DNA of 51,975 nucleotides from positions 1 to 51,975 of the forward strand of contig JAUYRZ010000113.1 of assembly GCA_030695565.1 (NCBI GenBank). The letters run 5' to 3'. This stretch comes from Archangium sp. GTDB lineage: Bacteria > Myxococcota > Myxococcia > Myxococcales > Myxococcaceae. Position 1 is the stretch's first letter, and each line of letters opens with the position of its first letter. Below, one piece after another: positions 6,279 through 48,544 of this stretch. The notes under the pieces are model-generated. The model saw only the letters and a program-made list of their open reading frames with translations, searched no databases and had not been told where the DNA came from. A program made the position numbers and the translations under genes.

Positions 6279-6307
6279 CCCCTCTCCCCGCTTCGCAGGG
6301 CGAGGGG
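6279..6307. repeat. Extragenic GGGAGAGGG-type hairpin repeat, copy 2
   Basis: CCCCTCTCCC (6279-6288) can pair with GGGCGAGGGG (6298-6307) with one mismatch, around a CGCTTCGCA loop. It lies in the gap between the NmrA-like gene and the Gly-rich lipoprotein gene, where it could end or stabilise the upstream transcript. Confidence 0.75.
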
Positions 6308-13228: not shown

Positions 13229-13305
13229 AGGGTCGCCGTCGGGGGACCAGGTCACCTGAAGATTCTTGCCCGCGCCGAGAGCCCGCGCGTTCGAGCCCGG
13301 GGCTC
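13229..13305 (+). repeat. Single arm of MITE-like palindromic element
   Basis: From CAGGGTCGCC to about GCGCGTTCGAGCC, this stretch aligns with the right arm of the element at 47970-48165 (shared CCGAGAGCCCGCGC) and with part of the island near 39180-39230 (TGAAGnTnCTnGCCC). It encodes the odd C-terminal tail of the sigma factor relic, so insertion or recombination of the element probably destroyed region 4. Confidence 0.6.
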
Positions 13306-13339
13306 GATCACCAATCACTCACTCTCGCCGGTGCACTGG

Positions 13340-37578: not shown

Positions 37579-37607
37579 CGGTGACGCTCGTACCACATCT
37601 GAAGTCT

Positions 37608-37627
37608 CCTCTCCCTTCGGGAGAAGG
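37608..37627. repeat. Extragenic GGGAGAGGG-type hairpin repeat, copy 7
   Basis: TCTCCC (37610-37615) and GGGAGA (37619-37624) pair over a TTC loop, followed by AGGTCAGCGTGAGGGC, which matches the tail seen after copy 1. It sits between two leftward genes. Confidence 0.75.
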
Positions 37628-37643
37628 TCAGCGTGAGGGCCGT

Positions 37644-38462
37644 TCAGTCAGGCCAGGCAGCCCGGAAGAGAGGTGCCCGCGCATTGGGATCGTCGGGGTC
37701 TGCCACCAGCCGCAACTCCTTGCCAAACCAACAAACGCCCTCGAGCTTCACGCCGGGAGCCATCACCCGGCGCGTCGCCAGGCCCAGTCGATCGATCACC
37801 CCAACGATCGACCCCGCGACCACACCATCGTCGTAGGGATTCTCGGTCGCCTCGGCAGCGGCGGTGAAAATGATCTGCGAACCGGGCCCACTGCACAGGT
37901 CGGTGAGCGAAAGCGAAACACCCTCGAACGAATCGAGCGCGACAGGAGTCACGCCGTGCAGACAGGCTGAGGTGAGCACGCCCGCCGCCAACTCGCGTTC
38001 GAAGACGCCGCGATCGAGACGAACGAGCGCGTTCTCCTTGCGAGCGCCGTTGCCCCGTTGGGCGAGGAACACCGCCTCGTCAGTGACCACCGCGCCTTCG
38101 ATGTTGAGCTCATGAATGTGGCCTTTAAGTGCGCTGTAGAGCGGGCGGAGCTCGATGGTCCGCCGAGCGAGGGTCTCGGGGTCGAGCGAGATCGCCAGAC
38201 ACCTCGCCGCGGTCGAACCAGAACCGATCGCGACCAGTTCACGACCCACGCTGATCAGCGCCTCGAAGTCGGGCTTTTTGCTCTTCGCGATGTGGGCGCG
38301 CGAAGACGAGTCACTCAAGGGCAGTCGCGCGGCGCTGCCTCCGCTGAGACCCGTGCGCAGCAACTCGAGGCCGTCGTCCGCGACTGAGTAGAGAAACCCG
38401 TCGCGGTGAACGAGCCCGCTGGCAGCGGACAAGTCGAGGTGCGTGATGAACTCGAGCGTCAT
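37644..38462 (-). CDS. Beta-propeller-like protein (DUF6929-like)
   Basis: Predicted 272-residue cytoplasmic protein; no signal peptide or membrane segment. The chain reads as short beta strands of the kind found in propellers: ITHLDLSAASGLVHRDGFLY, LYSVADDGLEL, HELNIEGAVVTDEAVFL, GVKLEGVCWFGKELRLVADP. This pattern resembles uncharacterised DUF6929/SdiA-regulated-like proteins. No catalytic residues stand out. ATG 38462 is the natural start; the stop lies just beyond repeat copy 7. The next upstream DNA is a lipoprotein relic on the opposite strand. Confidence 0.6.
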   Translation of the reverse strand: MTLEFITHLDLSAASGLVHRDGFLYSVADDGLELLRTGLSGGSAARLPLSDSSSRAHIAKSKKPDFEALISVGRELVAIGSGSTAARCLAISLDPETLARRTIELRPLYSALKGHIHELNIEGAVVTDEAVFLAQRGNGARKENALVRLDRGVFERELAAGVLTSACLHGVTPVALDSFEGVSLSLTDLCSGPGSQIIFTAAAEATENPYDDGVVAGSIVGVIDRLGLATRRVMAPGVKLEGVCWFGKELRLVADPDDPNARAPLFRAAWPD

Positions 38463-38500: not shown

Positions 38501-38975
38501 ATGAGGACATGGGCGCTGGTGGGGCTGGGCCTCCCTTCTTCCTGCAAAGGTGAATCGCGCCTGCTCAGAGCGCTCACAACCGCGAGGCGCTCGAACTCGC
38601 GAGGCCGTCGACGGTGACCCTCTCTGCTTTCGACGAGCACCGGGGGCTCGAAGGCACCGCCGGAGACTTCGACGAGGTCGCTGAGTTCATGCGACGCCTG
38701 AACGACATCGTCTGGTGTTCGAGAGGCTGGGCTTGGGTGGTTGAGCGCGCTCGCGACGGAACGTTCCGGGTCGAGCTGCCTGGCTCAGGCGTGCTCTTCG
38801 AGCTCGCTGCGAGCGGCGCCGAGTTCTCTTCGCTGGGACGGAGCTGGTGTTCACGGAGCTCTTGCCCTCGAGGCAGGGCGTTTCCTTCAAGCTCCGCTTC
38901 CGCCTCGAGGAGCTCCGCCGAAGTCAGAGGTGCCGTGCGAACCAGCTCAGGGAAGCGCGGTCGTCATTGGCTTCG
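38501..38975 (+). pseudogene. Frameshifted lipoprotein relic
   Basis: ATG 38501 begins a good lipoprotein signal (MRTWALVGLGLPSSCKG), but that frame closes at 38614. A second frame, open from 38554, continues plausible protein (NREALELARPSTVTLSAFDE, then RRLNDIVWCSRGWAWVVERA), and a third frame from about 38847 appears to carry on (FTELLPSRQGVSFKLRFRLE). Two frameshifts therefore separate three coding-like pieces in order, as expected for a decayed gene. The relic runs into the repeat island at about 38975. No family recognised. An alternative is that only the middle frame, starting at GTG 38614, is a real short gene. Confidence 0.5.
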
Positions 38976-39240
38976 CGCATTGCTCGGCTCGGTCGGGCTC
39001 TCGGCTCGCACAAAGATGCGTGGCTGGGCCAGGTCGGGGCGGGTCGACTCTCTCGGCTGTGACAACCCTGTTGCTTCGCGAAGCAACAGGGTTGTCATGG
39101 CCAGAAAAGTCGCCCCGGGTCTCCGCTCGGTGCGCCTCTCCGAAGTCTGACAAGCGAGTTGCTCCCCGCGTAACAACGGGGCTGTCAGTCACATGAAGGT
39201 CCTCGCCCATGGCTGAGAGGCCCGCTCGCAACGAGCAACG
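38975..39240. repeat. MITE-like palindromic element island, two units
   Basis: This fills most of the 328-base gap before the PIG-V-like gene. Its centre is a perfect 38-bp palindrome (39060-39097, core GACAACCCTGTTGCTTCG and its inverse). The left arm (about 38977-39055) matches the reverse complement of the right arm of the element at 47970-48165, including GGGCTCTCGGC. To the right is a second smaller unit (CCCCG...CGGGG with the GGGGCTGTCA flank) and an arm with TGAAGGTCCTCGCCC, matching the arm at 13229-13305. No ORF of coding character. It may be mobilised in trans or act as an extragenic palindrome. Confidence 0.7.
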
Positions 39241-39303
39241 CGAAGACCGCCGCCCCCACCTTCTTCAAGGCCACTTTCGACACTTGAGCGGTATACGGGC
39301 GCG

Positions 39304-46188: not shown

Positions 46189-47943
46189 ATGATCCGCTCC
46201 TTGCCCCTCGCCGTGGCCTGCTTTGCCCTGGCTTCCTGCTTTTCCCCGGTCGATGAAAACTTCGACGGTGGCTCTGGTGGGGGCAGCTTTTCGGGCGGTG
46301 GCACGGGTGGATTTTCCGGTGGTGGCACGGGTGGAGGGACCGGCGGCGGCTTCGGTGGTGGCGGTACGGGCGGCGGCTTCGGTGGCGGCGGTACGGGCGG
46401 CTTCGGTGGTGGCGGGACGGGCGGCGGCTTTGGCGGTGGAGCGGGAGGCGGTGGCATGTTCTGCGACGGCTGCCGGACGGCCGCGGGGACGTGCGTGCCT
46501 CGGGCCAACACCAGCTCGCTCAACTGCGGCATCAATGGCTCTGCCTGCGTCGACTGTGGCTTCGGGCAGGTCTGCAACGGCGGCCTGTGCATGTCGCCGC
46601 CCGCGAGAAAACGTGTCGGCGATGCCTGCGCTTCCGACGGGGAGTGCCAGCAGTCACTCGGTGGAGCGGCCTTCTGTAAGCAGCGCACCAGCAGCGGCAA
46701 CGCCACCTACGCCGACGGCTACTGCACGCTGCGCTGCGCGAGCACGGCCAGCCAGTGTCCGGTCGGCTCGACCTGCGTGAGCGTGGTCGCGCCCTACGGC
46801 GAATCCGACAGCATCTGCTGGGACAACTGCAGCGCGACCGATTCGTGCCGGAGCCAGGGGTACGCCTGCTACGGCATCGGCAACGTCAACGCGTGTTGGA
46901 TCAGCCCGCTTCCTCCGATGGGTGGCGGCGCGGGTGGTGGCGGCGGAGCGCCCATCGGCGGCGGTGGCGCACCGGTCGGCGGCGGCTTCGGTGGTGGAGT
47001 GGGTGGCGGCTTCGGCGGTGGATCAGGCGGCGGTTCAGGTGGCGGCTTCGGCGGTGGAGTGGGCGGCGGCTTCGGCGGTGGAGCGGGTGGCGGCTCTCCC
47101 ATCGGCGGTGGCGCGGGCGGCGGCGGCCAAACCTGCGACGGCTGCTTCTTCAGCGGCTTCTGCATTCCGCGCACGAGCTCCAACAACGACACCTTCTGCG
47201 GCCAGGGCGGCGTCACTTGCGCGAGCTGCAGCAACGGCCAGACCTGCCGCAACTTCACCTGCGTGAACGGCCCCGTCGGCGGCGGCACGGGTGGCGGCGG
47301 CGCGTTCGATGGTGGCCCTCCGGTGGGCGGCGGCATTGGCGGTGGTTTCGGTGGCGGCATTCCCACCGGTGGTGGTGGCGGCTCCGTCGCCTGCTCCGCG
47401 GCGACCTGCTCGGGCTGCTGCAGCAACAACTTCTGTGTGCCGCTCCAATCGCAGAGCAACTTCGCCTGCGGTCTGCGCGGCAATCAGTGCGCCTCGTGCT
47501 TCAACGGGCTGACCTGTTCTTCCGGCGCGTGCACCTCGCCCGACGCCGGCACCTCGCAGGTGGGCAACGCGTGCACGAGCGACACCCAGTGCCGCCCGCC
47601 CACCAACGGCTTCTGCATCGCTGAGACTGTGTTCGGTCAGCCCACCGGCTGGCCCGGCGGCGCGTGCTCGGCCAACTGCGGCACCACCTCGTGTCCTTCA
47701 GGCTCGTCGTGTCTCGACGTGGGGGGCGGTGGTGGCGGCACCGGCAGCAACCCCATCTGCTTCCAGAGTTGCCCGCAGCCGCGCATCGGTCAGTCCTCCT
47801 GCCGTGCGGGGTACGTGTGCGAAGTCAACGTGCAGACGACCGGCTCGGGTATCTGCATTCCGCGCTGCAACACGGCGGGCTTCACCTGCTGGCAGGGAAC
47901 GCGCTGCGACGTCGGTTCGGGGTATTGCGTCGCTGGGCCCTGA
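46189..47943 (+). CDS. Cys-rich, Gly-linker surface lipoprotein, paralogue B
   Basis: Predicted 584-residue lipoprotein; lipobox LASC with Cys17. A long GGGTGGGFGGGG-type linker (about 24-85) leads to CDGCRTAAGTCVP, then the module VGDACASDGECQQSL to ACWISPLP, a second Gly-rich linker, CDGCFFSGFCIP, a third linker, CSAATCSGCCSNNFCVP, and a final Cys-rich module ending YCVAGP. These modules match those of paralogue A (41805-43169) but in different order and number, with linkers two to three times longer. Disulphide-stabilised knobs on flexible Gly arms suggest a surface adhesive or receptor role. ATG 46189 has a weak ribosome-binding site. The gene precedes the second MITE-like element. Confidence 0.78.
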   Translation: MIRSLPLAVACFALASCFSPVDENFDGGSGGGSFSGGGTGGFSGGGTGGGTGGGFGGGGTGGGFGGGGTGGFGGGGTGGGFGGGAGGGGMFCDGCRTAAGTCVPRANTSSLNCGINGSACVDCGFGQVCNGGLCMSPPARKRVGDACASDGECQQSLGGAAFCKQRTSSGNATYADGYCTLRCASTASQCPVGSTCVSVVAPYGESDSICWDNCSATDSCRSQGYACYGIGNVNACWISPLPPMGGGAGGGGGAPIGGGGAPVGGGFGGGVGGGFGGGSGGGSGGGFGGGVGGGFGGGAGGGSPIGGGAGGGGQTCDGCFFSGFCIPRTSSNNDTFCGQGGVTCASCSNGQTCRNFTCVNGPVGGGTGGGGAFDGGPPVGGGIGGGFGGGIPTGGGGGSVACSAATCSGCCSNNFCVPLQSQSNFACGLRGNQCASCFNGLTCSSGACTSPDAGTSQVGNACTSDTQCRPPTNGFCIAETVFGQPTGWPGGACSANCGTTSCPSGSSCLDVGGGGGGTGSNPICFQSCPQPRIGQSSCRAGYVCEVNVQTTGSGICIPRCNTAGFTCWQGTRCDVGSGYCVAGP

Positions 47944-47969
47944 AGAGCGCGGGTATTCACTGTTTGCTG

Positions 47970-48165
47970 ATGCGCGTGTCCCGAGCAGGCCTCGCTCTTC
48001 GCGGCGAGGATGCGCAAGAGCCTGGGGCCCGGCCCGACTCTCCCGGCCGTAGCAACCCTGTTGCTATGCGAAGCAACAGGGTTGTCACACGCTGGAAAAA
48101 TCCACCGGATCGAGCTTCGGATCCTCGCCGCGTGCCGAGAGCCCGCGCAGGCGAGCACGAACGGA
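47970..48165. repeat. MITE-like palindromic element, complete unit
   Basis: A 13-bp stem CAACCCTGTTGCT (48053-48065) and AGCAACAGGGTTG (48072-48084) surrounds a 6-base loop. The outer arms are imperfect inverse copies of each other: the left has GGCGAGGATGCGCAAGAG, the right has GGATCCTCGCCGCGTGCCGA. The element shares its core and arms with the island at 38975-39240 and its right arm with 13229-13305. It fills the gap between paralogue B and the hybrid-kinase wreck. Confidence 0.7.
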
Positions 48166-48184
48166 ACCCATCAAACAGCACGCT

Positions 48185-48544
48185 TCATGAAGGCCGCTGC
48201 GCGAGGAGCTTGTTCACCTTCTCGAACTCCAGCGGCTTGACCAGATGATGATCGAACCCCGCCTCGCGTGACCTGCGCGCGTCTTCGGCCTGGCCCCAAC
48301 CGCTGACCGCGATGAGCAGCACCCCGCGGCCCCAGGGCTGCGCGCGGATCCGCCGGGCCAGCGCGTGACCGTCGAGCAGCGGCATGGAGATGTCGAGCAG
48401 CATCACGTCGGGCCTGAACTCCTGCGCCAGCGCGAACGCCTGCTCCCCGTCGTTGGCCACCCGGGTCTCGTGCCCGGAGAAGGTCAACGCCATCGACAGA
48501 CTCCCCGACGCGTCTTCGTTGTCGTCGGCGACCAGCACCTTCAT
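48185..48544 (-). CDS. Receiver-domain protein (CheY-like)
   Basis: Predicted 119-residue single receiver domain. Acid pocket D7-D8, phosphorylation site D51 (LLDISMP), switch Ser81 (AVSGWG) and K103 (LVKP) are all present, so the domain could be phosphorylated. As it stands it looks like a free CheY-like response regulator; however, just upstream lie out-of-place pieces of a hybrid kinase, and there is no ribosome-binding site worth the name before ATG 48544. So it is likely the surviving last domain of the wrecked kinase, perhaps expressed from a nearby promoter or not at all. Confidence 0.7.
   Translation of the reverse strand: MKVLVADDNEDASGSLSMALTFSGHETRVANDGEQAFALAQEFRPDVMLLDISMPLLDGHALARRIRAQPWGRGVLLIAVSGWGQAEDARRSREAGFDHHLVKPLEFEKVNKLLAQRPS

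Follow-up and report, generated by a model that had tools for sequence, protein, structure and literature searches.

We found that a perfect 38-bp palindrome in a stretch of Archangium sp. DNA of 51,975 nucleotides (the window, numbered from its first letter) lies inside an inverted-repeat sequence that recurs elsewhere in the same genome. The comparisons described below show that the palindrome forms the middle of a repeated element with the look of mobile DNA, and that longer relatives of this element contain the gene of a DNA-binding regulator. This suggests a mobile family associated with a regulator protein and not with a known transposase. The explanation we favor, to which we give about an even chance, is that the palindrome is a paired operator for a MarR-like protein, located in a derived form of a small inverted-repeat element that lacks the gene. 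The window is the whole of contig C118 of a genome of 8.5 Mb in 134 contigs (G000, called the own genome here). A myxo_SS_tail match that falls short of its cut-off (35.6 versus 40 bits) is no more than a hint of Myxococcota.

The palindrome (39060-39097) had been noted in a preliminary description made from the sequence alone. Both its perfection and its rarity by chance held when checked: approximately 1.6e-6 palindromes of 38 bp are expected in the window. No other perfect even palindrome in the window reaches 16 bp, a size for which about 2 would be expected. As described earlier, the flanks match two further loci in the window, 48030-48087 and a half-arm at 13230-13320. The first of these is 86% identical to the flank over 58 nt in direct orientation, and there is an inverted match of 81 nt (77%). 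The lack of coding sequence was likewise confirmed; with a GC3-based filter, there was no coding-like open reading frame of 60 aa or more from -616 to +226 of the centre. The limits first given, 38975-39240, were in the right place but slightly too narrow. The element, copy A, covers approximately 38945-39271 and consists of an arm, a core, a second core and another arm, with the arms inverted and about 110 bp long. We took the GGC end in the sequence as the right border and placed the left border where the weaker arm match begins. The features of copy A and of its relatives in the window are as follows (models and profiles are described below).

38945-39271, no strand: copy A, 327 bp, arm profile matches at both ends
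38945-39055, plus strand: left arm of copy A (arm profile, 32.2 bits, E = 4e-9)
39060-39097, no strand: perfect 38-bp palindromic core of copy A (from the sequence)
39148-39187, no strand: second, diverged core of copy A, TGACA...TGTCA (from the sequence; the core-model match at 39122-39199 is weak, E = 0.012)
39188-39271, minus strand: right arm of copy A (arm profile match to 39272, 52.7 bits, E = 1.6e-15)
47937-48194, no strand: copy B, 258 bp (arm profile)
48050-48087, no strand: core of copy B, an imperfect palindrome (core model, E = 7e-19, copy B itself being in the model)
13230-13320, minus strand: half element, a single arm at the 3' end of a putative sigma-factor-like reading frame (arm profile, E = 1.2e-6)

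The positions of these sequences relative to genes bear on the possibility that the palindrome is a feature of host RNA, a hairpin at the 3' ends of genes that acts as a terminator or stabilizes mRNA. The RNA folds are strong (z of -5.1 and -4.4), and in approximately 10 of 19 own copies a border lies within about 60 bp of a gene's 3' end (GC3 heuristic). Copy B lies between convergent open reading frames that end at 47943 (plus strand) and 48185 (minus strand), with both stops just inside its borders. However, copy A is upstream of the start of a gene (GC3 heuristic) and has no terminator-like site, and the one such site at copy B is weak and does not use the core. A search of the window against Rfam gave nothing at the gathering threshold, and the copies do not align at sister loci (below). 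We think it unlikely that the palindrome is an RNA feature of this kind.

The element belongs to a family with many copies. Following a BLAST search, we built a core model from 15 copies and found at least 19 core places in the own genome, the 15 included (38 matches over both strands, from the best 150 of 2394 candidates scored). Alignment of half-copies indicated that most copies are palindromes over nearly their full length. In the 12 copies with clear ends, each side extends ~126-139 bp from the centre, and the ends are GCCYTGAAG-like words. A profile of the arms only, made from 25 half-copies of three genomes, had at least 98 matches in the own genome (best 150 candidates scored). Of these, 68 form 34 inward-facing pairs, and 22 of the 34 pairs are 250-285 bp long. 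All of these matches have their arms in common, so the palindrome represents just one of the core types within a larger family. The preliminary description had staked its proposal on further copies in the genome or relatives in sister species, and both were found.

The family is largely confined to the genus. The arm profile matched 7 of 59 genomes of the host's taxonomic family. Within the genus, five of six genomes had from 11 to at least 63 arm matches (best 63 candidates per genome), including four of the five sister genomes. Among other genera, 2 of 53 genomes were matched, by three weak arm matches altogether. One sister genome, G003, has at least 149 arm matches, comprising 37 pairs and 75 singles.

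Some members of the family differ from copy A in size or centre. Two versions of 655 bp, L171 (G000 C64:69712-70367) and L172 (G000 C100:22838-23492), contain a long nested palindrome. They are 90% identical over 954 bp, and the shared stretch continues for ~280 bp past one end and 17 bp past the other. L196 and L205 are a similar pair (85%); each pair shares the element plus DNA mostly on one side. Ten own elements (L040, L173, L174, L183, L184, L185, L330, L332, L335 and L337; e.g., G000 C134:36934-37215) have a different centre, such as TGTTGCGGATTGTTCAATCG ... CGATTGTACATTCTGCAACA or TGTTACGGATA ... ATCCGTAACA, which is perhaps a second MITE that inserts into the core as its target.

The exact core hairpin also occurs outside the genus, in 20 stretches (16 from Verrucomicrobia, 2 from Clostridia, 1 from Paenibacillus and 1 from Mameliella). 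The arms of these stretches are unrelated by eye, so we treated them as look-alike hairpins. The Verrucomicrobia stretches (L045, L046, L048-L052 and L054-L062) contain a hairpin of 33 bp whose 11-base stem, CAACCCTGTTG, is identical, and this hairpin is found on five contigs in HKST-UBA33.

We found that ten own copies of the element are absent from the corresponding loci of sister genomes. We searched with the flanks of 12 own copies and aligned 10 of them in detail. None of the 10 copies aligned at the sister loci (pieces of at least 25 bp, E <= 1e-4), although the neighboring sequence did, in many cases on a single side. On the nearer side, homology ended 0-71 bp from the border of the element. 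For L019, it ended 0 and 3-5 bp from the two borders, and the flanks are 7.5 kb apart in G003. For L014, it ended 4-8 bp from the border. Homology of copy B with G003 on the left ended 4 bp before the left border, and there was no match there on the right. For copy A, homology resumes at 39284 (G003) and 39292 (G001), 13-21 bp past the border, and the sequence upstream of that point is unrelated in G001 and G003.

The far sides of these loci were less regular. Far-side homology ended ~207-1061 bp away for L021, L025, L034 (compared with G004), L038 and L079, whereas the sister genomes gave no far-side match for L014, L016, L020 and L027. None of the 10 aligned copies gave a clean two-sided empty site. 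Because far-side homology is distant or missing, there may have been deletions or rearrangements beside the elements. The flanks of L038 are 58 bp apart in G001, with no element between them, and the own genome has ~400 bp there in addition to the element. At the site of L034, G003 has a different element, with a winged-helix reading frame that lacks a start, and in G004 the flanks are 8 bp apart and ~1 kb more than the element is missing. Twelve copies showed no target-site duplication, their longest matches averaging 4.08, versus 3.80 for mismatched pairs; old copies may have lost it. Some element sites are common to several species, which indicates age rather than activity. The earlier proposal of a non-autonomous mobile element is supported by the copy number, the recurring ends and the ten copies absent at sister loci, from which we infer that the elements have moved.

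Longer members of the family contain a gene. In G000:C108, G003:C58 and G003:C6, a MarR-like reading frame is present between the arms, starting beside an arm and ending beside the core; the frame in G003:C6 contains an internal stop. A search of the genus with one MarR-like protein gave 15 matches in five of the six genomes. All five of the closest homologues are between arms, in one orientation, with the 3' end of the gene towards the core (for the gene in G001:C912, the far arm is weak, E = 6e-4, and at the end of the contig). Ten of the 15 homologues have an arm at E <= 0.001. The family Pfam model PF12802 (MarR_2) scored over its curated cut-off in 4 of 8 proteins scanned (L206, L207, L208 and L218), including all 3 scanned of the five closest homologues. 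In a comparison with PDB sequences, MarR chains matched the MarR-like protein (best E = 4.9e-9).

MarR-like genes are found near long palindromes or inverted repeats far more often than control windows are. Such a sequence was present within 600 bp of 12 of the 15 homologues (9 of 12 without L206, L208 and L215, which were first found by looking inside elements). It was present in only 4 of 49 control windows (Fisher test, 2e-7), a set in which some windows overlap each other and 10 are loci of REase homologues. Of the four control hits, two fall at REase loci and another (L251) adjoins a known copy of the element. Inverted repeats of 181-194 bp enclose two of the MarR-like genes in G002, and G003 has three weaker MarR-like homologues besides the three counted. 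Upstream of eight MarR-like genes (L206, L207, L208, L211, L214, L215, L216 and L220) there is a leader motif close to TGTCGGACCCGCATGAGATGA in sequence that is otherwise diverged (by eye). A more distant MarR-like gene, L212 (G000 C125:41298-41720), has no arm match; a palindromic tract of 215 bp, made of TTTGTAAACAAA-like dyads, lies ~190 bp past its 3' end.

The core has the geometry of two adjacent dyads. In copy A it contains two imperfect 15-bp dyads, at 39061-39075 and 39082-39096, with centres at 39068 and 39089, 21 bp apart. Twenty-one base pairs correspond to two turns of B-DNA, and at such a spacing two dimers would be side by side on one face. We analyzed 76 elements: 31 of the 34 own pairs and 4 own elements with one arm, 35 of the 37 pairs and one other element from G003, and 5 elements from G001. 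The long own elements at C64, C100 and C78 and the elements at G003 C6:35596 and C54:73116 were left out. Two strict 15-bp dyads with centres 21 bp apart were present in 18 of the 76 elements, and any other spacing up to 60 bp was found in at most 2 elements. These other spacings are the control for spacing; a shuffle of the bases within 20-base blocks tests the dyads themselves. The other 58 elements failed the strict test, as does the core of copy A. The 18 elements that passed have core words of four kinds (13 ATGG, 3 GCAACAC-like, 1 GTACACC and 1 CAACC) and so amount to four independent supports, not 18. The 19 own copies are less perfect, and only one of them passed. Nevertheless, their dyad signal peaks at 21 bp, with 4.3 and 4.0 of 7 pairs, compared to 2.95 for the next spacing and a background of 1.94. 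The dyad geometry and the linked MarR-like gene point, indirectly, to the protein-binding palindrome that the preliminary description had offered as one reading, with the core as a putative binding site.

A dyad of this size would be expected for any dimeric regulator, and the palindrome might serve a host regulator as the operator of an ordinary regulon. The distribution of the sequence argues against this. The exact 12-base core word is found at 9 places in the own genome. Eight of these (counting the exact word only) are palindromic elements, and the ninth is a lone half with no palindrome. We regard an ordinary host operator as very improbable.

The words in the core vary, and several of them match the words in elements that carry a MarR-like gene. 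The palindrome in the window has CAACCCTGTTG, whereas ATGGACCAT and GTACACC are found in G003 and GCAACACTGTTGC in G001. In G003, ATGGWCCAT is in 12 elements, GTACACC in 5 and CAACC in 3 (11, 4 and 2 without the three gene-bearing elements), and the three best MarR-bearing elements of that genome have exactly these three words. In the own genome, CAACC is in 16 of 35 elements, one of which is its MarR-bearing element. Three words in G003 and one in G000 may therefore correspond to MarR-bearing elements, but the words, those of the gene-bearing copies included, were picked after inspection. None of the five counted words is present in 16 of 36 elements in G003 and 9 of 35 in the own genome. Ten own elements have a core of the TTGCGGAT type, for which no such MarR-like gene is known, and there are further palindromic cores without a known gene. 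A TCATCAAAGAGGACA core recurs in G003 beside the weaker homologue of L220. Among the five closest proteins, the nearest pairs by tblastx share a core word (L206 and L207, 63%; L208 and L211, 55%). By global alignment the second of these pairings is a tie, with G003:C30 about equally close to G001:C912 (49%), G003:C58 (48%) and G000:C108 (49%). The sample of five proteins is small, and a match between gene and core could arise through common descent without binding.

In the explanation that we favor, the full form of the element would have a single MarR-like winged-helix gene, placed between the core and one of the arms. Each dyad would be a putative site for one MarR-like dimer, so that the palindrome would accommodate a neighboring pair of dimers on the same side of the helix. 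Gene-less copies would spread in trans through their arms. The MarR-like protein would act on its own family of elements, repressing them, licensing them or shielding their palindromic centre, and protein and core would thus be expected to change together. A point against this explanation is that the core is at the 3' end of the gene and not at its promoter, so that it is not a usual autoregulatory operator.

The arms are not specific to the MarR-like gene. An own element at C78:43993-45148 (L221) contains a reading frame of 322 aa with weak matches to AbiEi_4 and REase_MTES_1575, below the Pfam cut-offs. PMC3710099 describes the MTES_1575 domain as a REase resembling Vsr. We found 24 AbiEi/REase homologues in five of the six genus genomes, 9 of them with an arm at E <= 0.001 in the flanks fetched. 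The gene is between two arms in three cases: L221, L222 (G003 C6) and L225 (G001 C197). In G003, a single gene is reached from both flanks of the C78 element, and in G004 from one of them, indicating that the element is old at that site. In the C78 element and in its counterpart in G003, the match to the arm is limited to its outer 70 positions, and these may be the true ends of the element. Since arms also flank the AbiEi_4/REase gene, the MarR-like gene may be a passenger.

These observations are relevant to a competing explanation, that the element is an ordinary MITE or mobile insertion cassette. The arms would be the ends of an undetected DDE-type transposon that moves copies with and without a gene in trans, the MarR-like and REase genes would be passengers, and the palindromes would be a by-product of fold-back. 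This would account for arms that are common to copies with a MarR-like gene, a REase gene or no gene, and TIMEs, described in PMC4133298 as having varying modules without a transposase, are an example of such an arrangement. However, we noticed no transposase between the arms in the open reading frame lists of 17 arm-bearing own regions (the only transposase family searched for was PF01797), and the 21-bp spacing of the dyads and the matching core words are left unexplained. We consider this explanation possible, though doubtful.

A third mechanism of movement, that of a REP or REPIN moved by a RAYT or other Y1 transposase, would fit the palindromic form and the small hairpin-like ends (GCCTTGAAGAAGGC in some copies). 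The preliminary description had proposed a search for REP-associated tyrosine transposases, and the link was not supported. The own genome and four of the five sister genomes lacked any PF01797 match; G003 had one, so that one of six genus genomes was matched. Furthermore, the arms are far longer than REPs. We judge this mechanism extremely improbable and, because there is no RAYT in the own genome, do not file the family under REPIN/RAYT.

The favored explanation can be extended to a partnership like that of REPINs and RAYTs, with a MarR-family winged-helix partner in place of the transposase. We hold this extension, taken as one reading, only tentatively and rate it well short of even. Each genome would have a few regulator genes, each in one element, plus dozens of gene-less palindromic copies whose centre would be a pair of operators two helical turns apart. 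The specificity of the protein and the core would diversify into immunity-like groups, as in phage repressors and operators, and the protein would govern the copy number or movement of its family. An enzyme that recognizes the arms would cut the DNA; this might be the AbiEi/REase protein, with which the outer arms are shared. If this is true, the palindromes are a selfish family in which a regulator takes the place of a recombinase as the resident protein. They would provide a natural set of co-varying pairs of MarR proteins and operators, a testable model for how non-autonomous repeats are kept under control inside a host, and a clue to what the AbiEi/REase genes with the same ends do. Our searches of open-licence papers brought up no description of such a family that we recognized.

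The element appears to resemble MITEs and mobile insertion cassettes in structure, and its few genes, each paired with many repeats, would work in the manner of REPINs and RAYTs. REPINs are dispersed, non-autonomous palindromes of several types, each type tied to one protein gene, according to PMC3116915. The linked gene has the same type of repeat beside it, as may hold here for palindromes of different sequence types. The linked gene here is MarR-like and does not encode a tyrosine transposase. In addition, the elements are ~260-330 bp (mostly 250-285 bp) with arms of ~110 nt, compared to 20-40 bp for the two short inverted REP sequences of a REPIN. The gene-less elements have the traits of MITEs, which are short, intergenic, inverted-repeat sequences in many copies (PMC10969869): they are short, with terminal inverted repeats, no coding capacity and many copies. 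Unlike MITEs, they have no parent transposon that we noticed (lists from 17 regions) and no target-site duplication (12 copies), are palindromic over nearly the whole length, and have a core of paired dyads and, in their longer forms, a regulator gene. Mobile insertion cassettes (MIC231) and TIMEs (PMC4133298) also have conserved ends around varying modules and no transposase. In a mobile insertion cassette, the ends are those of a known IS family and enclose passenger genes; copies enclosing a gene were found here too. In contrast, the module here is repeatedly the same MarR-like gene in a fixed orientation. ERIC, Correia/NEMIS and RUP sequences are palindromic intergenic repeats too. To our knowledge, none of them has a regulator gene in longer copies.

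The window also contains a separate REP-like repeat of the CCCTCTCCCCGC...GCGAGAGGG type, at 37600-37645 and at 6280, 34946, 51627 and 51711. Elsewhere in the genome, this repeat has at least a dozen other short matches.
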